NCBI GenBank assembly: GCA_022562155.1
Contig: JADFPV010000018.1
Location: forward strand, 1 to 41,284
DNA length: 41,284 nucleotides
Source of the DNA: Chloroflexota bacterium
GTDB taxonomy: Bacteria > Chloroflexota > Dehalococcoidia > DSTF01 > RBG-16-68-14
Reading direction: 5' to 3'
Below, piece after piece: positions 9,825-32,344 of this stretch (positions within the stretch are counted from its first letter, which is position 1; each line of letters starts with the position of its first letter). Both the position numbers and the translations under genes were made by a program. The notes beneath the pieces are model-generated. The model made no database searches. It was not told the origin of the DNA and saw nothing but the letters and a program-made list of their open reading frames with translations.

Positions 9825-10034
9825 ATGTGTCGAAGCATCAAAACGCTCCGGGGGACCGAATTCTCAGACGAGGAGATCAGCGCTGCCGCGCTCCAGTTCG
9901 TGCGCAAAGTGAGCGGCTATCGCAAGCCGTCCAAGGCCAACGAAGAAGTGTTCGACGCGGCGGTCGATGAGATCGCCGACGCCTCGAAGCGGCTGCTGGA
10001 TTCGCTGGTAGCGGGCTCTAAGAGAGCAGGCTAG
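9825..10034 (+). CDS. DUF2277 family protein
   Basis: The 69-aa protein begins MCRSIKTLRG and has the DUF2277 pattern (ALQFVRKVSGYRKPSKANEEVFD). The family is small and of unknown function, and this length is normal. The frame is open further upstream inside the epimerase gene, but the MCRSIKTL start is characteristic and lies 5 nt after the epimerase stop. The stop codon overlaps that of the convergent acetyltransferase gene through a shared CTAG. Confidence 0.9.
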   Translation: MCRSIKTLRGTEFSDEEISAAALQFVRKVSGYRKPSKANEEVFDAAVDEIADASKRLLDSLVAGSKRAG

Positions 10035-11254
10035 AAAACCTCGGGTGTCCACGGCAACGGCGACCAGCCGAACGCGGCGTCGGCGCGACGCAACACGTCG
10101 ACTTCGCCCTCCACACGACCGGCGCGCGCCAGCGTCGACAGATGCGTGCCACCCATGTACACCGCCCCCAGGTCCGCGGCGCTCAGCGTGATGTCGGCGT
10201 CGGCGTCTGTGCGTTTGCAGGTCGCACCGTCCGGACCGCCCTCGAGCTGGTAGCGGCCCTCCGTCCAGTCGCAGAACGAGTCGCGAACGTCAATGACAAC
10301 GTCGATGTCGGCCGCATAGCGTCGGGCCTCCAGGGCCGCGGGCACGTCGACGACGCGCACCCAGAGCGAGTCCATCTGCTGGCGCTCTAAGCGGCGCGGG
10401 TCGGACAGCATCCAGTAGAGCGGCTCGTCGCTGCGCCGGTTGTGCGCCAGGATCGTCCCGATCAGGTCGACGCCGAACAGGTACGACCAGAGCCCTGTGT
10501 AGGCGCCATCGCTGGCGGCCATCAGCTCTTGGACGGCTAGCGATCCGTCAGGCGCGCCGTCACCGCCGCCCTCGCGGGTGCGATAGCGAGCATATCCAAG
10601 CGGTTCGCCGTCCTCTTCGTAGAGGACGTAGAACCTGCCGCCAAAGTTCGTCCGGCGGTCTTCTTTGTCCGGCAACGTGTGGTGCTTCCACCAGGTCTCG
10701 CTGCGGGAGTACATGCCGGGTTGTCCGGGCAGGACCTTGTCGTAAACCTTGGGCCATGTCGCCTGCGCTTCCTCGCGAGAAAGCAGGCGCGTGCTGCCGG
10801 TCGCGGGCGGCTGGCTCGCGAACTTCGTCCGCAAGCGGTCGATCTTGATCTGGCTGCTCTGGGCCGCGATGCCGTAGCCGAACCTTCCGTAGATCACGCT
10901 CTCCGACGCCCAGAGCGCCGCGATTGGCTCGTTGCGATCGCGGATGTCGCTGAGCTGTTGTTTCATCATGGTTGTGAGCAGGCCCTTGCGACGATGCGTC
11001 GGCTTGACGCTGACCCAGGTCACGCCGGCCGTTGGCAGCGAGCCGCCGGGGACCGTCATGTCAAACGAAAAGATGCCGGTGGTGCTGACGATCTCCTCGC
11101 CGTCGAAGCTGGCCAGCGTGCGATCGTATTCGCAGAGCGCCTTCGTGTTCGCCGTGTCTTCCGGAGGCGCGACGGGCGCCCCAAAGCCGATGAAGGTCGT
11201 GGTGACAAAGGTGTCGAACTCTTCCGGCGTGACCGGCCGCATTTCGATGCTCAT
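10031..11254 (-). CDS. Eis-like GNAT acetyltransferase with SCP2-like C-terminal domain
   Basis: The 407-aa protein has the layout of Eis (enhanced intracellular survival) acetyltransferases: an N-terminal GNAT domain whose acetyl-CoA loop reads HRRKGLLTTMM, a second GNAT-like domain, and a C-terminal sterol-carrier-like domain (DADITLSAADLGAVYMGGTHLSTLARAG). Eis proteins acetylate amines on aminoglycosides or protein lysines; the substrate here is unknown. The open frame runs 39 nt further upstream, but GGAGGAGG just before ATG 11254 fixes the start. The first about 215 coding bases plus 38 nt of upstream sequence are duplicated at 13681-13934. Confidence 0.88.
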   Translation of the reverse strand: MSIEMRPVTPEEFDTFVTTTFIGFGAPVAPPEDTANTKALCEYDRTLASFDGEEIVSTTGIFSFDMTVPGGSLPTAGVTWVSVKPTHRRKGLLTTMMKQQLSDIRDRNEPIAALWASESVIYGRFGYGIAAQSSQIKIDRLRTKFASQPPATGSTRLLSREEAQATWPKVYDKVLPGQPGMYSRSETWWKHHTLPDKEDRRTNFGGRFYVLYEEDGEPLGYARYRTREGGGDGAPDGSLAVQELMAASDGAYTGLWSYLFGVDLIGTILAHNRRSDEPLYWMLSDPRRLERQQMDSLWVRVVDVPAALEARRYAADIDVVIDVRDSFCDWTEGRYQLEGGPDGATCKRTDADADITLSAADLGAVYMGGTHLSTLARAGRVEGEVDVLRRADAAFGWSPLPWTPEVF

Positions 11255-11292
11255 GATGCCTCCTCCGTGATTGGGTGAAGAGCAGTGTAGCA
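11039..11292. repeat. source copy of duplicated acetyltransferase 5' end
   Basis: This 254-bp segment holds the first codons of the acetyltransferase, its ribosome site and 38 nt upstream. It matches 13681-13934 with only scattered substitutions and constant offset, so the copy was made without internal gaps. Confidence 0.93.
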
Positions 11293-11673
11293 TGTGCGGT
11301 TTTGTAGCCTGGTTTGGGCGACTGGACTGGTCTGCTCGCTAATCAGACGGCCTGCTCCCAAACATCTCCCACTCAGCGGCGTAACTAACGACTGACGCTC
11401 CGAGCGTTAGCCGTCCAGCTATCAGGCAGTTCGCACGCGCTTGCGCCGAGACAGAATAACATTTCCACTGCTATACTTATGTCCTGCTGCCTGGGCTTCT
11501 GGGGTGGGAGCGTGGCCTGGCGGCGTCGTCGGATCGGCCGGCGATGTGTGGTCACTGTCCGCAATACGAGAGAGCGGCTAGCAAATCACATTCGACGGCC
11601 CCATGCAGGGCTTGAGTGCACGGACGCCTTGAAACCCCGCCGTTAGTTCGCCGTTATAGCGAATGTAGCGTTC
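11255..11673. other. intergenic stretch with one promoter-like box and two hairpins
   Basis: No convincing gene is seen. An extended -10 box (TGC-TATACT, 11469-11477) points toward the cohesin gene and would give a leader of about 190 nt. A hairpin with stems TTCGC/GCGAA (11647-11651/11659-11663) sits just before the cohesin start. A second inverted repeat (CTAACG...CGTTAG) lies near 11383-11410. Confidence 0.5.
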
Positions 11674-13179: not shown

Positions 13180-13680
13180 ACGCCACATAACTCTCCCACC
13201 TCCCGCTGCCTTGATCGGGGTGTAACAGAGCTGTCCGAAGACGAGAACCGGTCCTGCGTTGGTAGCAATGTCCGGTCGGCTTCCCACCTACGCAGAGCTG
13301 TGCGTGCGCGAGGAGGAGCTGGGGATAGGGTGGCTGTGTCTCGCGGAGAGGTCGCTGGACGACAATCGTACATCAAAGCACGTAGTACCTTCACCGAAGG
13401 AGACAGGTTCCCATGTCAACTCCGCTCGATGACCTCACCAACCTGGATTTCAAGAGCGCTAGCGGCTGTGCTCGCCATCTCCTGCTGTGGCGGCCGGAGC
13501 TTAGCACGCATCCGCGCGGACGGGCTATGCTAGTATATGCGTTTGCAAACTCCTCCCGCGGGGCAGCTACATCATCCTCCCTGATGTACATCCCTAAGTA
13601 GCGGAGACAGGATGAGCCAGACGACACCAACGCTTATTCCGGAAGCCGACAGTAGAAGCGCGGCCTGCACCCCGATGAGG
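13180..13680. other. mosaic of truncated gene starts, no intact gene
   Basis: Three short starts follow one another. At 13284-13325 the sequence reads PTYAELCVREE, like the N-terminus of the cyclase at 37836. At 13413 an ATG behind GAAGGAGA begins MSTPLDDLTNLDF. At 13612 an ATG behind GGAGACAGG begins MSQTTPTLIPEAD. Each loses coding character within about 20-60 codons. About 13475-13510 also resembles 15950-15985 (shared peptide SCCGGRSLAR). The last fragment runs straight into the duplicated acetyltransferase segment. Confidence 0.5.
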
Positions 13681-13934
13681 CGAGCCGCCGGGGACCGTCA
13701 TGTCAAACGAAAAGATGCCGGTGGTGCTGACGATCTCCTCGCCGTCGAAGCTGGCCAGCGTGCGGTCGTATTCGCAGAGTGCCTTCGTGTTCGCCGTGTC
13801 TTCCGGAGGCGCGACGGGCGCCCCAAAGCCGATGAACGTCGCGGTGACAAAAGTGTCGAACTCTTCCGGCTTGACCGGCCGCATTTCGATGCTCATGATG
13901 CCTCCTCCGTGATTGGGTGAAGAGCAGTGTAGCA
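13681..13934 (-). pseudogene. truncated copy of the acetyltransferase 5' end
   Basis: This minus-strand fragment repeats the first about 72 codons (MSIEMRPV start at 13896, ending near DMTVPGGS) of the gene at 10031-11254, with its GGAGGAGG ribosome site. After the junction at 13681 the frame continues into unrelated sequence until a stop at 13594. The GNAT acetyl-CoA loop and everything after it are missing, so it cannot be an active enzyme. A few amino-acid changes (for example T to K at position 8) show it has drifted since duplication. Confidence 0.9.
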
Positions 13935-14646: not shown

Positions 14647-15941
14647 CTGCCGCCTCCTAGCTGGCGTCGATGCAAAACAGCCAGAACAGACTCAAATGGC
14701 TCTGGCTCATCAATATACCCTCCAACGTCCGAACGCACATCGACCACCACGTCTTCAAACTCGATCACGGCGATCCGGCCGTACGGGATCATCCAAAGCT
14801 CGTGGTACTGCTGCTCACAGCGTTCTTGATCGGTCTGAGGATTGTTCACCGCAATTGGAGCGCGCCAAGCGATGAGGTCGTACGAGATGCCCTCCGTGCC
14901 GGAGACAGTGATGGGTTCACTCTGCGCGCAGGATGCGCCCACGAGGAACTTACCCTGCGCCGTCAAGGTGTAGCGCGCCCAATCGGCCGGCGTCCAGAGA
15001 AAGACGTAGACTCCTGGGACGCCGGAGGGCGTCTCGTAGTAGAGGTGGAGGCCGTAGGTCTGACCCTCCGGATACGGCCCTTCGTCTGGTGGAAACGTTA
15101 GCTGCGTCTCAACTCTCGCAAGGACGAGGCCATTAGAGCCGTCGAGATCGACGTCTTCGCCGAGCCAGTAGACAGAGACTTGAGACTCGATGACGTCTAG
15201 CTGGCCGCTGGCGTCTCTAATGCCGTAACCGATCGACCTGGGGTCGAAGAAGTCCTCCGCAAGGCTGCCTCGCGGAACGTATTCGTGCTCGAAACGAGAT
15301 ACGATCTCGACCTCCTCGTCTGGCGAAGACGCCAGGGTGATTCGCGCGATGGGAAGCATCGTAGACGCATCCAGATAGACTCGCGTCTCGAACGTAGTGC
15401 TGCCCGGCGCACTCCTTCCATGAAAGACAAGCACGATGGCGGAAGTACCTTCGTACTGGGCGTCGGTTTCAAGAGAAACCGCCAGAGCATTGAACCCACC
15501 CATCGGGAATAAAGCGCACCCGAGGAGGACCGAGATGAGGATGCTATCGCTTTCAGGACAACGTGTATCGATGTCTTGTCGCAGCGCTTCGTCCGGGTCG
15601 TCAGGGAAGTAGGCGTAGCGGCCGTCGAAGATCGTCACGCCCTGCAAATCGAGATCGCCCTCGAAATCGGGAGGGAGGACATACTCCTGCCTGCCAACGC
15701 CTCGCCCTGCATCCAGCCAGATGTCTACCTCAATGATGTCCTCAGATTCGTTGCCCTGGGCCAGGTCCGTCGTGATCGTCGTGTGTAGCACGGACCGGCG
15801 TGCTTGCAGGCCTGCGGCCAGCGCCTGGTATGCATCATCGACTGTCGTAACGTCTGGCGCTGGACGCGAGCCTTCACCACCACAGGCCACGACCACAAGC
15901 GCGATTGTGATGCCGGCGATTGCTGCTGTGCGTAGTGTCAT
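14643..15941 (-). CDS. large lipoprotein, LolA-like N-terminal half
   Basis: The 432-aa protein has a signal with lipobox VVVAC followed by GGEGS. The N-terminal half (DDAYQALAAGLQARRSVLHTT, then FETRVYLDASTMLPIARITL) looks like the LolA/LppX fold that carries lipid moieties across the cell wall. The C-terminal half is a second beta-rich domain with no clear family. The frame is open to a GTG at 15950, but ATG 15941 is chosen because AGGAGG lies 8 nt before it. It is the first gene of the two-lipoprotein operon. The upstream region carries a perfect ACGCGCG/CGCGCGT inverted repeat (16001-16022). Confidence 0.78.
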   Translation of the reverse strand: MTLRTAAIAGITIALVVVACGGEGSRPAPDVTTVDDAYQALAAGLQARRSVLHTTITTDLAQGNESEDIIEVDIWLDAGRGVGRQEYVLPPDFEGDLDLQGVTIFDGRYAYFPDDPDEALRQDIDTRCPESDSILISVLLGCALFPMGGFNALAVSLETDAQYEGTSAIVLVFHGRSAPGSTTFETRVYLDASTMLPIARITLASSPDEEVEIVSRFEHEYVPRGSLAEDFFDPRSIGYGIRDASGQLDVIESQVSVYWLGEDVDLDGSNGLVLARVETQLTFPPDEGPYPEGQTYGLHLYYETPSGVPGVYVFLWTPADWARYTLTAQGKFLVGASCAQSEPITVSGTEGISYDLIAWRAPIAVNNPQTDQERCEQQYHELWMIPYGRIAVIEFEDVVVDVRSDVGGYIDEPEPFESVLAVLHRRQLGGGR

Positions 15942-16054
15942 GCACGCCACCTCCTGTTGTGGTGGTCGGAGTCTAGCAAGGCAGGAAGGAAGAGCGGGAG
16001 ACGCGCGTGCTCACCCGCGCGTGGGAAGGCAGCGAGCGCGGAAGGGGCGCTTCT

Positions 16055-16221
16055 ACTAATGACGCAACCTAGCCGCTTCCGCCCGCGCATGCTACAGTAT
16101 TTACAACAAGCTCCCTCGTCTTCGACCCGCAGGTGGAGACTCCCACCTTCCTTCTGCACTCGGACGGCTAGGACACGAGTCAGAAGGTTTTTATTCACGA
16201 ACACCCAGCACACCGCCAGCC
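16055..16221 (+). promoter_or_regulatory. structured leader element, copy A (before the DEAD-box unit)
   Basis: An extended -10 promoter (TGC-TACAGT, 16090-16098) is followed by a leader sharing about 165 nt with 18825-18990. Hairpin 1 pairs 16119-16124 with 16134-16139 around loop ACCCGCAGG. Hairpin 2 pairs CCTTCTG-C-ACTCG (16150-16162) with CGAGTCAGAAGG (16176-16187), with one bulged C. Hairpin 1 keeps pairing here through two G-U wobbles where copy B has Watson-Crick pairs, which supports selection on RNA structure. Downstream are the 127-aa ORF and the helicase. Confidence 0.65.
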
Positions 16222-16317
16222 TACTACTCGACCAGATGAGACGCCGCCTCGTGGGCGGTCGCTCGGACCCGCCCAAAGAGCGATCTGGCGGCTGACGCCT
16301 GTTGGGTTCAATACAAC

Positions 16318-16701
16318 ATGGGGGGCGCGGTGAAGTTCGGCGATCGGCAACCCGGTACGTCGATCACGTTCCTTGACGCCGGGTCAGCAGAGAGCATCTT
16401 GCAGCTTGCATCCGATGCTGATGGCGTCCACTTGGTATCGTTCCATCTGTACGATTCTGAAGGCTCCCTTGTCGCAGAGCGCGAAGGCCTGGAGCACTTC
16501 CCGGACGGGGTCGATGTTCGTTCCAGCGGTGGCGAACTGCTGCTGTCTGTTCCAAAGAACGCTGACGAGAACATCCGATATCGCCTGTATGGCCATGATG
16601 GAGAGCTCCTCACGAGCTCCGATGGTGTCCGCACCAGGATCTATCAACGCCTCCACACAGAGGGGGGCGGACGCAACTGGGTAGCCCACTCCAAGAAGTA
16701 G
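16318..16701 (+). CDS. hypothetical protein between leader A and the helicase
   Basis: I do not recognise this 127-aa protein. It appears soluble, with no signal or membrane segment, and alternates beta-type stretches (LVSFHLYDSEGSLVAE, GGELLLSVP, YRLYGHDGELLTS) in a way that suggests a compact beta domain. The ATG at 16318 lacks a ribosome site; a GTG at 16330 preceded by a run of G could be the true start. It is the first gene after leader copy A and ends 59 nt before the helicase start, so both are probably on one transcript. Confidence 0.6.
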   Translation: MGGAVKFGDRQPGTSITFLDAGSAESILQLASDADGVHLVSFHLYDSEGSLVAEREGLEHFPDGVDVRSSGGELLLSVPKNADENIRYRLYGHDGELLTSSDGVRTRIYQRLHTEGGGRNWVAHSKK

Positions 16702-16760
16702 CCCGCGGGACGGTTCCGCTACCCCCAATCATCAATGAATCTCACAGGAAAGGTACGCAT

Positions 16761-18029
16761 TTGACTACATTTCAGGACTTCCAACTGAGCGCCTCGCTTC
16801 TGAAGGCCCTCGATGCGATGCAAATCGAAACGCCGACGCCCATCCAGTCAGCGGCGATCCCTCCGCTGCTTGAGCGCCGCGACGTGATGGGCCAGGCGGC
16901 CACAGGCTCCGGCAAGACCCTCGCGTTCGGGCTGCCACTCGTGCAGAGTGCGAAACCCGGAGAGCGGACGCCGAGCGCACTAGTCGTAGTGCCGACGCGT
17001 GAACTTGCGCAGCAAGTCGGCGGCGTGCTCTCGCAACTCATTGCCGGGACGGGCCTGCGCTCAGTCATCGTCTACGGCGGCCGGCCGATCGGCCCCCAAG
17101 AAAAGAACATCCGCAAAGGCGTGCAGATCGTTGTGGGCACGCCGGGGCGGCTCGTCGATCTCCTGCAGCGAGGCTCGTTGCGCCTGGACCGGGTGCGCTA
17201 TCTGGTGCTCGACGAGGCGGATGAGATGCTCGACCGCGGGTTCGCGCGAGACGTCGACCGCATCCTCGGCGCCACGCCGCGAGAACGCCAGACGGCGCTC
17301 TTCTCAGCAACAATGCCGGCGGTTCACGACGTTTCTGGCAAGTATCTGCGCGACCCCGTGGTGATTGTGTTGGACGCGGAACAGGAAGCGCAGCCGGACA
17401 TCGACCACGCGATCTACGAGGTCGGGAGCGATGACAAGTTTGACGTGCTCCGCCGTCTACTTGACGAGCCGACATCGGGCGGGACACTTGTCTTCGGGCG
17501 CACGAAGCACGGTGTGCGCCGCTTGGGCCAGCGGTTGGAACGGTCGGGCTACCGCCTGGGCGTGCTTCAGGGCAACCTGAGCCAGCCACAACGCGACCGC
17601 GTGCTGCGCGAGTTTCGTTCAGCCAAGACGCCTGTCCTGCTGGCGACGAACGTCGCAGCGCGCGGGCTAGACGTGCTCCACATCGAACGTGTCATCAACT
17701 ATGACCTGCCGGAGACCCACGATCTATTTACCCATCGCGTGGGGCGCACAGGCCGGATGGGCCGCTCGGGGCGTGCCATTACGCTGCTGGGGCCGGCCGA
17801 TTTGCCGAAGTGGAACAAGATCGAACGCGGTCTGGGCCGCAAGCTGCCCCGCATGACATTGGACGGCAAGCCGGTCGCGACGCCACCCCAGACGAACGGC
17901 GCCCAGCGGAGGCGCCGGATCTCCAGCTGGCACGGACCGCGGCGAACCCCCCAGACTCAGCACGCGGCCCCCTCACGAGCGCCCGCCCAACGGAACCGCC
18001 ACCAGGCTCGGCGTCGGCAACGCGCGTAA
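16761..18029 (+). CDS. DEAD-box ATP-dependent RNA helicase
   Basis: The 422-aa protein has all core helicase motifs in order: Q motif (FQDF through PTPIQSAAIP), motif I ATGSGKT, Ia PTRELAQQ, Ib GTPGR, II DEAD, III SAT, and VI HRVGRTGR. A short basic C-terminal tail rich in Arg and Gln replaces a folded RNA-binding domain. DEAD-box helicases of this size unwind short RNA duplexes in ribosome assembly, RNA decay or cold adaptation. The start is a TTG behind AGGAAAGG. Leader copy A upstream, shared with the CspA gene, suggests cold-linked control; that link is inference. Confidence 0.94.
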   Translation: MTTFQDFQLSASLLKALDAMQIETPTPIQSAAIPPLLERRDVMGQAATGSGKTLAFGLPLVQSAKPGERTPSALVVVPTRELAQQVGGVLSQLIAGTGLRSVIVYGGRPIGPQEKNIRKGVQIVVGTPGRLVDLLQRGSLRLDRVRYLVLDEADEMLDRGFARDVDRILGATPRERQTALFSATMPAVHDVSGKYLRDPVVIVLDAEQEAQPDIDHAIYEVGSDDKFDVLRRLLDEPTSGGTLVFGRTKHGVRRLGQRLERSGYRLGVLQGNLSQPQRDRVLREFRSAKTPVLLATNVAARGLDVLHIERVINYDLPETHDLFTHRVGRTGRMGRSGRAITLLGPADLPKWNKIERGLGRKLPRMTLDGKPVATPPQTNGAQRRRRISSWHGPRRTPQTQHAAPSRAPAQRNRHQARRRQRA

Positions 18030-18098
18030 GAGCGACCACCCACCTACGCAAAGCTATCCACGCGCGAGGACGCGGTCCTGCGCCCAAGCAGCGGCCTG

Positions 18099-18170
18099 CC
18101 CTGGCTGCCCGCCGCAGGTGGGAGCCGAACCGCAGGGGCCGCGACTACGACTCTCGTCTCCCGCTCCAAC
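18099..18170. repeat. palindromic intergenic repeat, decayed copy
   Basis: The core CCGCCGCAGG and the tail CGTCTCCCGCTCCAAC match the copies at 18671-18780 and 26714-26810. The far arm of the palindrome is lost here. It lies directly after a stretch (18041-18075) reading PTYAKLSTREDA, which resembles the N-terminus of the cyclase at 37836. Confidence 0.6.
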
Positions 18171-18269
18171 CCCAACATCTCGGAAGGGGCCGCCAACTTT
18201 ATCTGATGGCCAGTTGACGTCCCCAGTCGTAGCTACTGAAAGAGGCAGACGAACGACATCCACTCTTGG

Positions 18270-18275
18270 TACAAT
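18270..18275 (+). promoter_or_regulatory. -10 box giving a leaderless transcript
   Basis: TACAAT ends 6 nt before the ATG at 18282, so transcription would start at or next to the start codon. The same box and spacing are kept in the second copy (31974-31979). No ribosome site is present in either copy, consistent with leaderless translation. Confidence 0.65.
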
Positions 18276-18281
18276 CCAATC

Positions 18282-18608
18282 ATGAAGAGAGTTGGATCAG
18301 CAGTATCACTCGCCGGCGCCGTCCGGCCCGTTCTCGGCCCGCTCAACCGAGAACTCGCGAGCCGCAACGCACGAGCCGTGAGCAGGGAAGAATGGCCCGA
18401 ACTGGATGACATCCTGCACGAGCCCAATTCCGCCAGTGTCATTATGGGCATGCGTTGTTCGTCCTGCGGCGGCTACCTCGACACCGACGGAGATGGGGAG
18501 TTCACGTGCCTCAATTGCGCACGCTCCGCCTTTCCTCGACGCGAGGTTGGCGAGCTAGTCGAACGGCTAGCGGGGCGACTGATCGAGTACCGCAATCGCC
18601 AGGACTGA
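18282..18608 (+). CDS. small zinc-ribbon protein, paralogue 1
   Basis: This 108-aa protein is not recognised as a known family. The N-terminal half is helical and charged (SREEWPELDDILHEP). Residues about 58-79 form a treble-clef or zinc-ribbon-like CSSCGG...CLNC pair separated by an acidic DTDGDGEFT loop. The last 25 residues form an amphipathic helix (REVGELVERLAGRLIEY). It could bind RNA, DNA or a partner protein. The second copy at 31986 differs at only five residues outside the zinc site, so both are probably functional. It sits between the helicase and CspA genes but has its own leaderless promoter. Confidence 0.75.
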   Translation: MKRVGSAVSLAGAVRPVLGPLNRELASRNARAVSREEWPELDDILHEPNSASVIMGMRCSSCGGYLDTDGDGEFTCLNCARSAFPRREVGELVERLAGRLIEYRNRQD

Positions 18609-18670
18609 AACAGCCCCTGCAATGCTGGCGCTTCACCGGAATCGAGCGAGATGCTACCCACAGAGGCCTA

Positions 18671-18780
18671 CCCTGCCTGCCCGCCGCGGGAGGGAGCCGG
18701 GTCGCAGGGGGTCGGGAGTCCCCGCAACGGCGGGCCCGTCTGGGCCTGCCCGTCCGGGCAAACCTCATCTCAGGCTCCAA
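18671..18780. repeat. palindromic intergenic repeat, intact copy
   Basis: Inverted arms GCCCGCCG and CGGCGGGC enclose a GGGAGGGAGC...CCCCGC centre. The element ends with a GGCTCCAA tail related to those of the other copies. It is very close in sequence to 26714-26810 and flanks the zinc-ribbon unit on its right side. It resembles REP or MITE-like non-coding repeats. Confidence 0.75.
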
Positions 18781-18824
18781 CTCAGCAGTCAATCTCTAGC
18801 CCGCCCCCGTTGAGGGGACCCCGT

Positions 18825-18990
18825 ACTCACGACGCGAGCTAGCCATTTGAGCTCACGGATGCTACAGTGTTCGCAACAAGCCCCCTCGTCTTCGAACCGC
18901 AGGCGAAGATTCCCACCTTCCCTCTGCACTCGGCGGCCAGGACGCGAGTCAGAAGGTTGCTATTCACAACCACCTACCACACCGTCACCC
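18825..18990 (+). promoter_or_regulatory. structured leader element, copy B (before the CspA gene)
   Basis: The same element as 16055-16221: an extended -10 box (TGC-TACAGT, 18860-18868), then hairpin 1 with stem TCTTCG/CGAAGA (18889-18894/18904-18909) and loop AACCGCAGG. Hairpin 2 pairs 18920-18932 with 18945-18956, with one mismatch relative to copy A. The cold-shock gene starts about 80 nt after hairpin 2. Long structured leaders are typical of cspA-type mRNAs in other bacteria, where they act as temperature-responsive switches. Confidence 0.68.
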
Positions 18991-19036
18991 GAGCGCTGCC
19001 GACCGGCGGCGACGTAGACTCTAAGGAGGAACACGC

Positions 19037-19267
19037 ATGGCGACAGGAAGCATCACCAGAATCGTTCGTGACCGAGGCTTCGGCTTCATCAAGCCCTCAG
19101 ACAGCACAGAAGAGGTCTTCTTCCACAGCAGTTCGGTGGACGATCCCACATTCGACGAGCTGAACGAAGGCCAGACGGTCGAGTTCGATGTCGAGCCCGA
19201 CCCCAGGCAGCCAGATCGAAGTCGCGCGTCCCACGTACGGCTCGGCAGTAGCTCAGACGCAACCTAG
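19037..19267 (+). CDS. cspA: cold-shock domain protein
   Basis: The 76-aa protein is a single cold-shock domain with RNP1 (RGFGFIKP, about residues 14-21) and RNP2 (VFFHSS, about 31-36). It binds single-stranded RNA or DNA as an RNA chaperone. AAGGAGG lies about 8 nt before the ATG. The 160-nt structured leader and extended -10 promoter upstream match those of the DEAD-box unit. The desaturase-like gene begins 7 nt after its stop and is probably co-transcribed. The symbol is given for family only; the genome may hold several paralogues. Confidence 0.93.
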   Translation: MATGSITRIVRDRGFGFIKPSDSTEEVFFHSSSVDDPTFDELNEGQTVEFDVEPDPRQPDRSRASHVRLGSSSDAT

Positions 19268-19274
19268 GCGAGAC

Positions 19275-20171
19275 ATGTCCGACGTCCCGCTGCTGCCCTC
19301 GCTCGAACCCGAGGTCGCGAGGCTGCTCGCGCGGCACAACGAGGCCTCGGCCCGCATCGACTGGTCGTACCGCGAGTTCCTGCCGCTGGAGGCGCTGCAT
19401 GCGCCCAGCACCACCCCTCCCCTTTCGGACCTGGCGTACACCGCTGTCGAGACCGCGCTCCTGACCGAAGTCAACCTCCCCTGGTACACCGCCGTTCTCC
19501 ACGAAGGCCTCCGCGATTCGCTCCCGCCTCTCCAGGAGTTCGTCCGCGTCTGGACCTCGGAGGAGGACCAGCACTCCACCCTGCTGGAGACGTACCTGCT
19601 GCTTACCGACAACGGCGACCACGCAGAGCGCGGCCGCCGACGCAAGGCCGTACTGGCCGGCGGCTTCTCACATCAGCTCGAAGGCGCTTTCGAGGCCATG
19701 GTCTACACCACGATTCAGGAGCTGGCCACCCAGGCCTTCTATCTGCACACCGCCGACGCCGTAGAAGCCCAGGACCCCACCCTATCTCGCGCGCTCCGCC
19801 GCATCGCTAAAGATGAGACGCGCCATTACGCCTTCTACCGCGACGTGGTGAAAGCCCATTTGGACGCCGACGCTGCCTACGTCATTCCGCTCGTGGGCGT
19901 GCTCGTCCAATTCCAAATGCCCGGCCGCGTCATGAGCGACTTCGACGAGCGCAGCCTGATGCTCGCTTCGGAAGGTGTCTTCGGGCCAGAGCAGTACCTC
20001 GACGACGTCGTTGACGTAGTATGCTCGTTCTGGGAGGTCGACGAACTTGCGGCAGCTGTGCCCGAAGCGCGGCGAACGGTTGCACGGATGCGCGCGCTTC
20101 GCGCTGGGCTCAAACGTCTCACCAAGCGAATAGGCACGCACAGCGCCCGCCAGCTCTCCAAAGTCGGCTAG
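19275..20171 (+). CDS. acyl-ACP desaturase-like diiron protein
   Basis: The 298-aa protein belongs to the soluble fatty acid desaturase/ferritin-like group. All six diiron ligands can be placed: E65, E97 and H100 (EEDQH), E149, E181 and H184 (DETRH), with the same spacing as plant stearoyl-ACP desaturase and mycobacterial DesA. It would insert a double bond into acyl chains, and co-transcription with a cold-shock gene fits membrane fluidity control. The open frame begins at 19188 inside the cold-shock gene, but ATG 19275 is preferred because it follows that gene's stop by 7 nt. Its 3' half is duplicated at 24694-25129. Confidence 0.85.
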   Translation: MSDVPLLPSLEPEVARLLARHNEASARIDWSYREFLPLEALHAPSTTPPLSDLAYTAVETALLTEVNLPWYTAVLHEGLRDSLPPLQEFVRVWTSEEDQHSTLLETYLLLTDNGDHAERGRRRKAVLAGGFSHQLEGAFEAMVYTTIQELATQAFYLHTADAVEAQDPTLSRALRRIAKDETRHYAFYRDVVKAHLDADAAYVIPLVGVLVQFQMPGRVMSDFDERSLMLASEGVFGPEQYLDDVVDVVCSFWEVDELAAAVPEARRTVARMRALRAGLKRLTKRIGTHSARQLSKVG

Positions 20172-20371
20172 CGCACCGCAGCACCGCAACCGCACCGACG
20201 CTGAGCAGAGCTAAACCCACCGCGAGGACGCGTCTGCTTCCCAAGCTGACGGGGTTTCGAGTTCGAACCTGATTCCCCGCTCCAAGCCCAACTTCTGATG
20301 TTAGGAACGCCATTCGGCAAGAGGACACGTCCAGCACGGCGGGTCTCAGAAGCCGCCTCCTGGCCCGACTG
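20172..20371. other. intergenic stretch with decayed repeat sequence
   Basis: About 20205-20295 is related to 18043-18190: both have AGCTA, CGCGAGGACGCG, CCCAAG and a CCCGCTCCAA tail in the same order, with a different middle. A GGCGG/CCGCC hairpin near 20340-20360 could serve as the terminator of the convergent cupredoxin operon. No gene seen. Confidence 0.45.
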
Positions 20372-24242: not shown

Positions 24243-24571
24243 CGTAGGGCTCCTAGCTCAGTCAACGTGTCGTCCAGTTGCCTCCAGTAGGCGATGAGCT
24301 GCACTAGCCGCTCCGTTCCGGATTTTGTCACCCGGTAGTACTTGCGCGGCGGTCCGCTGTCGGACTCCTCCCACTCATGATCCAGCAGACCATCGCGTCG
24401 CATCTTGCTGAGCAGCGGATAGAGTGTGCCTTCTTGCGTGGCGAAGGGCGTCTCGGCCAGGCGCTCCAGGACATCGCCCGCGTAGTGGCGCCCCGTCGAC
24501 AGCGCGGTCAGGACAGCGAACTCAAGGAGTCCTCGGCGGAGGGGCTTGAAGAGATTGGTGGTGCCCATCAT
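24239..24571 (-). CDS. PadR-family transcriptional regulator
   Basis: The 110-aa protein is a typical small PadR: a winged helix with LLEFAVLTALSTGRHYAGDVLERL, the wing segment TQEGTLYPLLSKMRRDGLLDHEWEESDSGPPRKYYRVT, and a C-terminal dimer helix. PadR proteins repress nearby transport or stress genes until a ligand binds. It heads the four-gene operon and overlaps pspC by 4 nt. A -10 box TATACT (24580-24585, minus strand) ends 8 nt before the ATG, so the mRNA is nearly leaderless and the operator overlaps the promoter. Confidence 0.93.
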   Translation of the reverse strand: MMGTTNLFKPLRRGLLEFAVLTALSTGRHYAGDVLERLAETPFATQEGTLYPLLSKMRRDGLLDHEWEESDSGPPRKYYRVTKSGTERLVQLIAYWRQLDDTLTELGALR

Positions 24572-24572
24572 A

Positions 24573-24598
24573 GTACCTTAGTATACAATGGTACCTTA
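24573..24598 (-). promoter_or_regulatory. promoter with direct-repeat operator for PadR
   Basis: GTACCTTA occurs twice in the same direction (24573-24580 and 24591-24598, plus-strand reading), 18 nt apart start to start, on either side of the TATACT -10 box. Repeats bracketing the promoter suggest autoregulation by PadR, though the usual family operator is an inverted rather than direct repeat. Confidence 0.5.
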
Positions 24599-24693
24599 AT
24601 GGGCGCCGGCACGCAACCCCGGCTTACATCCAGCCGACGCTGGCTCTTCAAGCGGACCCTCGATGCTGGTTGTTATGGGCGAGCGGCAAAGCT

Positions 24694-25129
24694 GGCCTTC
24701 TATCTGCACACCGCCGACGCCGTAGAAGCCCAGGACCCCACCCTATCTCGCGCGCTCTGCCGTATCGCCAAGGATGAGACGCGACATTACGCCTTCTACC
24801 GCGACGTGGTGAAAGCCCATCTGGACGCCGACGCTGCCTACGTCATCCCCCTCGTGGGCGTGCTCGTTCAATTCCAGATGCCCGGCCGCGTCATGAGCGA
24901 CTTCGAGGAGCGCAGCCTGATGCTCGCCTCCGAGGGTGTCTTCGGGCCAGAGCAGTACCTCGACGACGTCGTTGACGTAGTATGCGCGTTCTGGGGCGTC
25001 GACGAACTTGCGGCAGCTGTGCCCGAAGCGCGGCGGACGGTTGCCCGGCTGCGCGCCTTACGCGCCGGGCTCAAGCGTCTCGCCAAGCGTCTCGGGGGCA
25101 GCGCCCGCCAACTCTCCAAAACAGGCTAG
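24694..25129 (+). pseudogene. 3' half of the acyl-ACP desaturase gene, duplicated and truncated
   Basis: From the codons for AFYLHTADAVEAQ onward this copies 19733-20171 at high identity, with one codon deleted near the end (RIGTHSARQ versus RLGGSARQ). The first about 153 residues are missing, so four of the six iron ligands (E65, E97, H100, E149) are lost and only the second ExxH remains. A long open frame runs in from 24377 through the PadR gene on the opposite strand; it is a chance frame. No ribosome site or promoter precedes the fragment. Confidence 0.88.
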
Positions 25130-25166
25130 CGCACCGCGGCGCCACCCACGACCGAAGCCACGTTAG

Positions 25167-26532: not shown

Positions 26533-26964
26533 GTTTTAACCTCCCTGCTAAAAGAAACGGGCGGTAGTGCTTCACCCGCTCGCATTTTGTGCGGCTACCG
26601 CCGTCGGTAACCACGATTGAGGGGAAGTATGGACAATTTCGAGTGGCAAGTCAAGTCCAGGTCCCAGCGACGGCCCAGGCTCCTTCCATAACACCGATTT
26701 CGTCTATTCAGGGCCCTGCCGGCCCGCCGCGGGAGGGAGCAGAGCCGAAGGGGTCGCGAGTTCCCGCCACGGCGGGCCCGTCTGGGCGACGCTCGTCTCC
26801 CGCTCCAACCCACGCCTAGTACATAGAGGGCATCCCGGCCGGCGGGCAGAGCGCCCCACAACTCCGAGGTTGACCGCGAAATGGACGCGGAGGTATTGTG
26901 CTGCTCTTGGGCGACGGTGGCTTTTTCGGGTCATCTGGCTGCTATGGGGAACGCCGGAATCGAC
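26533..26964. other. intergenic stretch holding one palindromic repeat
   Basis: It separates divergent genes. Apart from the repeat at 26714-26810 and an in-frame extension of the SDR gene (open from 26881), I see no gene. No clear promoter box is visible for the stalk gene. Confidence 0.5.
26714..26810. repeat. palindromic intergenic repeat, intact copy
   Basis: GGCCCGCCG pairs with CGGCGGGCC around GGGAGGGAGC and CCCGCCA. The CGTCTCCCGCTCCAACC tail is nearly identical to that of the copy at 18099-18170, and the palindromic part to that of 18671-18780, so this copy joins features of both. Confidence 0.75.
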
Positions 26965-31908: not shown

Positions 31909-31933
31909 GCCTCAGATCCAACACTAGGTTTCT

Positions 31934-32344
31934 TAGCTGCTGAAAGAGGCAGACGAACGACATCCACTCTTGGTACAATCCAACCATGAAGAGAGCTGGA
32001 TTAGCAGTATCACTCGCCGGCGCCGTCCGTCCCGTTCTAGGCCCCCTCAACCGAGAACTCGCGAGCCGCAACGCACGGGCCGTGAGCAGGGAGGAGTGGC
32101 CCGAACTGGATGACATCCTGCACGAGCCGAATTCCGCCAGTGTCATTATGGGAATGCGTTGTTCGTCCTGTGGAGGCTACCTCGACACCGACGGAGATGG
32201 GGAGTTCACGTGCCTCAATTGCGCCCGCTCCGCCTATCCTCGACGCGAGGTTGGCGAGCTAGTTGAACGATTAGCGCGACGACTGATCGAGTACCGCAGT
32301 CGCCAGGACTGAATACAGCCCTGCCCTGCTGGCGCTTCACCGGA
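31934..32344 (+). repeat. duplicated zinc-ribbon gene unit, copy 2
   Basis: Equal in length (411 bp) to 18230-18640 and collinear with it, including the upstream region, the TACAAT box and about 30 nt after the stop. Sequence outside these ends is unrelated. No target-site duplication or inverted terminal repeat is visible. Confidence 0.93.
31986..32312 (+). CDS. small zinc-ribbon protein, paralogue 2
   Basis: The 108-aa protein differs from that at 18282 at five positions (V4A, S6L, F84Y, G97R, N104S), none in the CSSCGG or CLNC zinc pairs. Many DNA differences between the copies are silent, which suggests purifying selection after duplication. TACAAT (31974-31979) ends 6 nt before the ATG, as in copy 1. 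It lies between the dockerin hydrolase and ltrA genes, a wholly different context from copy 1, so the gene does not depend on its neighbours. Function unknown; a nucleic-acid or protein-binding adaptor is possible. Confidence 0.75.
   Translation: MKRAGLAVSLAGAVRPVLGPLNRELASRNARAVSREEWPELDDILHEPNSASVIMGMRCSSCGGYLDTDGDGEFTCLNCARSAYPRREVGELVERLARRLIEYRSRQD

Follow-up and report, generated by a model that had tools for sequence, protein, structure and literature searches.

The window, which is the whole 41,284-nt stretch of Chloroflexota DNA analysed here, contains a DEAD-box helicase unit and a cold-shock protein unit, and both are preceded by a similar leader. The locus raises the question of why two separate units have the same leader and whether this leader is an RNA switch.

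Two copies of one element and the genes behind them

In the self-comparison of the window, 16054-16221 (copy A) and 18824-18990 (copy B) were 81.5% identical over 168 nt (E 1.2e-39), and the relatedness that the initial annotation had claimed for 16055-16221 and 18825-18990 is therefore real. An extended -10 promoter had also been claimed for each stretch, and TGCTACAGT is indeed found at 16090 and 18860. The promoter of copy A (16062-16098, plus strand) has CTAGCC at the -35 position and TGCTACAGT at 16090-16098; that of copy B (18832-18868, plus strand) has CTAGCC and TGCTACAGT at 18860-18868. The window contains three TGCTACAGT sequences, while 0.14 are expected by chance, and the third is at 2972 on the minus strand. 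Judging from the sequence, transcription probably starts just 3' of the -10 box (about 16103 and 18873). The putative leader of copy A is about 115 nt long (16103-16217, plus strand), with hairpin 1 at 16118-16140, hairpin 2 at 16150-16187 and a conserved 3' block that ends at 16217. The leader of copy B is at 18873-18986 (plus strand), with hairpin 1 at 18888-18910 and hairpin 2 at 18920-18956.

All the genes behind the two copies are on the plus strand. Copy A is followed by a junction region (16218-16317), orf127 (16318-16701), a spacer (16702-16760) and a DEAD-box RNA helicase gene (16761-18029; PF00270 1.9e-49, PF00271 2.5e-26). Copy B is followed by a ribosome-binding site region recognised from its sequence (AAGGAGG, 19024-19036; CTAAGGAGGAACA is kept in relatives), by csp for a 76-aa cold-shock domain protein (19037-19267; PF00313 6.9e-16) and by a gene for an acyl-ACP desaturase, a fatty-acid desaturase of type 2 (19275-20171; PF03405 6.9e-39), which starts 8 nt past csp. 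The Pfam matches agree with the claim that both units encode cold-shock proteins, and they add the desaturase, the partner gene of csp, as a third member of the cold-adaptation gene set. All three protein types belong to the standard cold-adaptation repertoire: cold-shock proteins as RNA chaperones, desaturases in membrane fluidity and DEAD-box helicases in RNA unwinding. The orf127 product has no Pfam family. Members of its family accompany csp or DEAD genes (16318-16701; L048 2918-3265; L083 3656-4015), and genome G003 carries two of them.

The neighborhood contains several other repeats. A second, truncated desaturase copy is at 24377-25129; its N-terminal half is replaced, and the match at 24694-25143 is 91% identical to 19733-20185. 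A 415-nt duplication (93.5%, 18227-18640 and 31931-32344) carries a 108-aa ORF with CxxC pairs (zinc-ribbon-like, zr108). A 255-nt duplication (97.6%, 11038-11292 and 13680-13934) is a truncated copy of the start of a 420-aa ORF (10031-11293). A short GC-rich intergenic repeat is at 18661-18745, 18089-18138 and 26714-26787, with five or more occurrences genome-wide.

When the whole 2.77-Mb assembly was searched by blastn with copy B, only the two copies were found; a third match of 18 nt (E 0.6) is a chance match. Among 60 relatives, blastn identified one copy each in G001 and G002, which belong to the same genus as the window, and in G005 of the same family, and all three are directly upstream of csp. 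A scan of genome contigs with the desaturase alignment returned only the three known relatives (Chloroflexi MAGs SZUA-185, B85T3L11, and B45T1L10). The covariance model R1, built on the five element copies, scored 133.8 bits for copy A and 137.2 bits for copy B. It found no further credible copy over the order (18 genomes) or the class (393 genomes), so that the element is present in only 4 of the 393 genomes of the class, all from the window's family. Near-threshold R1 matches in G004 (23 bits), G008, G016, and G290 were not counted, and the one in G004 falls within an apparent coding region. The desaturase leader of G004 (L084, about 640-800), a candidate remote homologue, has only 16 nt in common with the element (P 0.002-0.06). 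In G003 (L014), csp directly follows an rpsU-like gene, and the element is absent. Four of the five copies precede csp and one precedes orf127-DEAD, and thus the copies are not placed at random relative to genes. A conserved leader of at least 100 nt directly upstream of csp, as in the cspA-like functional class, is present. A dispersed repeat or mobile element was rejected as an explanation, because the genome holds only two copies and the three relatives hold one each.

The order of genes in the relatives explains the common leader. In G002 (L045), the element, csp (3789), the desaturase gene (4026), orf127 (4995) and the DEAD gene (5430) form one operon, and G001 (L046) has the same gene order on the opposite strand. 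In both genomes, the orf127 orthologue lies between the desaturase and DEAD genes. Window positions 16276-17902 aligned with L045 4947-6574, beginning about 22 nt past the desaturase stop codon. On the other side, homology of copy A to the csp leader of G005 extends to about 16256, and homology to the desaturase-orf127 spacer of G002 begins at about 16275. Since the alignments meet at about 16256/16276, where the cassette joins orf127, copy A is the promoter-leader of the operon joined to its second half; by the same alignments, copy B is the promoter-leader with the first half. These alignments indicate that the operon is split in two in the window and that each half has its own cassette copy. 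Therefore, csp and DEAD units have a common leader owing to the history of the operon. The single operon in G001 and G002 and the junction in the window were found instead of what independent recruitment of a dispersed switch by both units would give. The split may have arisen by tandem duplication with reciprocal loss or through a transposed copy. The tree of the five elements gave no branching order among the two window copies and G005, and the two window leaders (86% identical) are as diverged as leaders between species (82-91%).

Conservation and predicted structure of the csp-type leader

Between genomes, the leaders were 82-91% identical, whereas the neighboring csp and desaturase genes reached 55-74% at their fourfold-degenerate sites, and thus the leader is under selection. 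Conservation is high for about 90 nt past the -10 box, with its maxima in the loop of hairpin 1 and in ACCUUCCUUCUGCACUCGG. The leader alignment A6 has one-base gaps at columns 10, 15, and 62, so that the transcribed part is apparently non-coding; these single-base indels between copies also speak against a leader peptide, which was rejected.

Hairpin 1 of copy A is GUCUUCG-ACCCGCAGG-UGGAGAC, and that of copy B is GUCUUCG-AACCGCAGG-CGAAGAU. The bases quoted in the initial annotation were exact: CGAAGA in one copy is TGGAGA in the other with pairing through G-U, and the loop CCGCAGG is unchanged. The same loop sequence is present in each of the five known copies. At the three positions where the 3' arms differ, G-U pairing preserves standard pairs, and the changes are one-sided only. 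Hairpin 2 is CCUUCUG(C)ACUCG/CGAGUCAGAAGG, and copy B has one C.A mismatch in it. A third hairpin, GGUUG/CAACC in copy B, was rejected because its registers differ among copies. In the five copies, 97.9% of the cells of hairpins 1 and 2 are paired, compared with 36-45% when the arms are slid, a value that largely reflects sequence conservation. Stem columns are less variable than the rest (7/38 vs 24/67).

It had been proposed that the two units share an RNA switch, which would call for stems kept in additional copies. Most pairs were retained, which favors this weakly, but 6 of 8 stem changes retained a pair, which is no better than chance (P = 0.21). The common leader of the csp and DEAD units stands; reading it as a switch is less well supported, given stem changes at chance level and the lack of compensatory changes. 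Double compensatory changes were not found among the five copies, which are too few to prove or exclude structure. Folding energies were ordinary relative to shuffled sequence (z -0.6 to -1.6), and hairpin 1 is absent from the minimum-energy fold of both window copies. No segment of the leader paired with the csp Shine-Dalgarno sequence better than shuffled sequence (P 0.16-0.69), and CUUCCUU was rejected as an anti-Shine-Dalgarno sequence because its duplex energies were no better than shuffled. With five sequences, no double change, ordinary energies and no Shine-Dalgarno pairing, a structured leader is plausible within these limits.

For a competing hairpin, GCAG..GAAG with CUUC..CUGC, each of the five copies retains all 8 pairs. 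It draws on the conserved hairpin 1 loop as well as the 5' arm of hairpin 2, and its use of the loop would explain why the loop is invariant. Thermodynamic prediction gave this hairpin as the cold form in 2 of the 5 copies (copy B and G002), and no refolding on cooling was predicted in copy A, G001, or G005.

Proposed function and its alternatives

We consider it probable that the element serves as a cis-regulatory cassette, conserved and with a structured leader, and that it controls a cold-adaptation operon split by duplication or deletion, with a choice between folds as the proposed mechanism. The regulatory function is well supported, RNA switching by the leader is plausible on the modelled folds, and temperature sensing is offered as a hypothesis. 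The cassette of about 165-200 bp would combine the extended -10 promoter with about 115 nt of structured, non-coding 5' leader downstream of it, and it would control an operon of csp, acyl-ACP desaturase, orf127 and DEAD-box helicase genes. In the window's genome, duplication or deletion would have split this operon, and each half retains a cassette copy, so that helicase and cold-shock protein would stay under the same control. The nascent leader might form hairpins 1 and 2, or instead the competing hairpin, in which GCAGG(CGAAG) from the hairpin 1 loop and 3' arm would pair with CUUCCUUCUGC from the hairpin 2 5' arm. The choice might be set by temperature directly, or by the Csp or helicase binding to pyrimidine-rich single-stranded stretches (autoregulation), and it might alter translation or stability of the mRNA. 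We also count in favor of the cassette that leaders with predicted pairing at the ribosome-binding site precede DEAD genes that stand alone, or different csp genes, in relatives.

The strongest alternative, although we find it rather unlikely, is a plain duplicated promoter region whose role is confined to the DNA level, as a promoter and possibly an activator site, with the transcribed part kept for initial transcription or mRNA stability. The promoter part (CTAGCC and TGCTACAGT), kept in all five copies, is equally conserved, and neither covariation nor anti-Shine-Dalgarno pairing was found in the leader. However, the roughly 90 nt conserved past the -10 box, with peaks at the hairpin 1 loop and ACCUUCCUUCUGCACUCGG, exceed what a promoter needs. 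Conservation of the leader could still be due in part to promoter function at the DNA level. Less probable still is an attenuator or small RNA, in which hairpin 2 and a U-rich tail would terminate transcription to give an RNA of about 90 nt, with read-through in the cold. Copy A does have CCUUCUG..CAGAAGG followed by UUUUUAUU, but the tails in the other copies are UUGCUAUU, UUUCUAUC, UUCCUAUU, and UCUCGAUU. Hairpin 2 was not reported by a terminator scan either, which counts little since the scan has a loop limit of 8 nt. A neutral leftover of tandem duplication without shared regulation would fit the duplication-prone neighborhood (partial desaturase at 24694-25143, zr108 at 31931-32344), but it is very improbable, as the window copies diverged as much as those of different species and yet have lost neither the promoter nor more than a few stem pairs, and three other species carry one conserved copy each.

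The cassette with a structured leader, which we prefer, was compared with known cold-shock leaders. The cold box is common to the E. coli cspA-family and csdA (deaD) leaders, near the 5' end. The window resembles this system in having one leader element common to csp and DEAD-box helicase genes, but the sharing here stems from a split operon, and no cold box was found at up to 3 mismatches to the consensus in 16103-16217 or 18873-18986. The Rfam cspA thermoregulator matched neither the window at the gathering score nor 15900-19300 up to E 10, which, with the missing cold box, bears out the earlier view that the element is distinct from the cspA leader. No family of Rfam 15 matched any scanned locus, and neither the csp-type nor the DEAD leader (see below) is present in it. 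We found nothing in the literature on csp leaders in Chloroflexota. The E. coli cspA mRNA is described as a thermosensor (Giuliodori 2010, as cited in PMC9947658). The element would resemble the cspA-family leader in being a long, structured 5' region ahead of a cold-shock gene and in allowing competing folds; unlike that leader, the element has no Rfam match and no sign of a leader-paired Shine-Dalgarno sequence, and it comes from another phylum with another sequence. A thermosensor has also been described for Thermus thermophilus, the ttcsp2 5'-UTR (Mega et al., as cited in PMC9800685); like the element, it is a csp leader from outside Proteobacteria for which a temperature-dependent fold is predicted, a likeness drawn from its description. 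The csp-type and DEAD leaders are new sequence families, analogous to the cspA and cold-box leaders. Through the element, an operon for cold adaptation that encodes a cold-shock protein, a membrane desaturase and an RNA helicase is defined in an uncultured Chloroflexota family, together with a leader that marks it, and the element gives a case in which the control region is retained on both halves when an operon breaks up.

A separate leader of solo DEAD-box genes

A second leader, in front of DEAD-box helicase genes, emerged from the comparison as well, and it is directly testable as an RNA switch. Solo DEAD genes have a leader of about 100 nt that is unrelated to the csp type, in G003, G004, and G005 of the window's family and in G008, G011, G013, and G014 of the sister family. 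The loci are L076 3280-3381 (minus strand) and L077 3378-3479 from G008/G013, and L070 5067-5178, L071 2998-3109 (minus), L082 3198-3298, L083 3255-3352 (minus), L084 3117-3216 (minus), and L101 1501-1599. Its stem, UCUUC/GAAGA and ACG.CCG.UGCGA/UCGCA.UGG.CGU, is 97% paired. Alternatively, the arm UUUCG can close the Shine-Dalgarno sequence CGAAAGG (88% paired), and the two pairings are mutually exclusive. The model R2 of this leader found it in 8 of the 393 class genomes, with matches below 27 bits in G005, G006, and G015 left out. Only G038, from another family, was outside model building, and its match (E 4.9e-11) lies exactly before the DEAD-box start codon. Two double compensatory changes occur, G-C to A-U in G005 and C-G to U-A in G038; with eight sequences, and 65 of 500 shuffles doing as well, this covariation is suggestive only. 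On these predicted pairings, the DEAD-box leader appears better supported than the csp-type leader as an RNA switch candidate.

The DEAD leader is absent from G000, G001, and G002; in these genomes, the DEAD gene either belongs to the csp operon or is headed by the csp cassette, and of the DEAD leader only the Shine-Dalgarno end remains. In the window, the spacer 16702-16760 keeps this end (GGAAAGGTACGCATTTG) and scored below threshold with the DEAD-leader model (13 bits, E 0.58). Tentatively, this Chloroflexota order might have two unrelated, undescribed cold-shock leader RNAs. The UUUCG of the DEAD leader would pair with a conserved 5' arm, leaving the Shine-Dalgarno sequence free, or with CGAAAGG, closing it. 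The helicase gene would have lost its own switch on joining the csp operon and taken a copy of the csp switch at the split, so that RNA cassettes were exchanged and cold control was kept. We consider this possible, though doubtful.

The csp genes of the sister family have yet another conserved leader (L015, L016, L022, L023, L030, L031, and L032). It has a variable CACGACG/CGUCGUG stem, and in several members its 5' CUCCUG can pair with the Shine-Dalgarno sequence. Predicted pairing of the 5' segment with the Shine-Dalgarno region was better than in shuffled sequence in 4 of 11 sister-family csp leaders (P 0.003-0.013).
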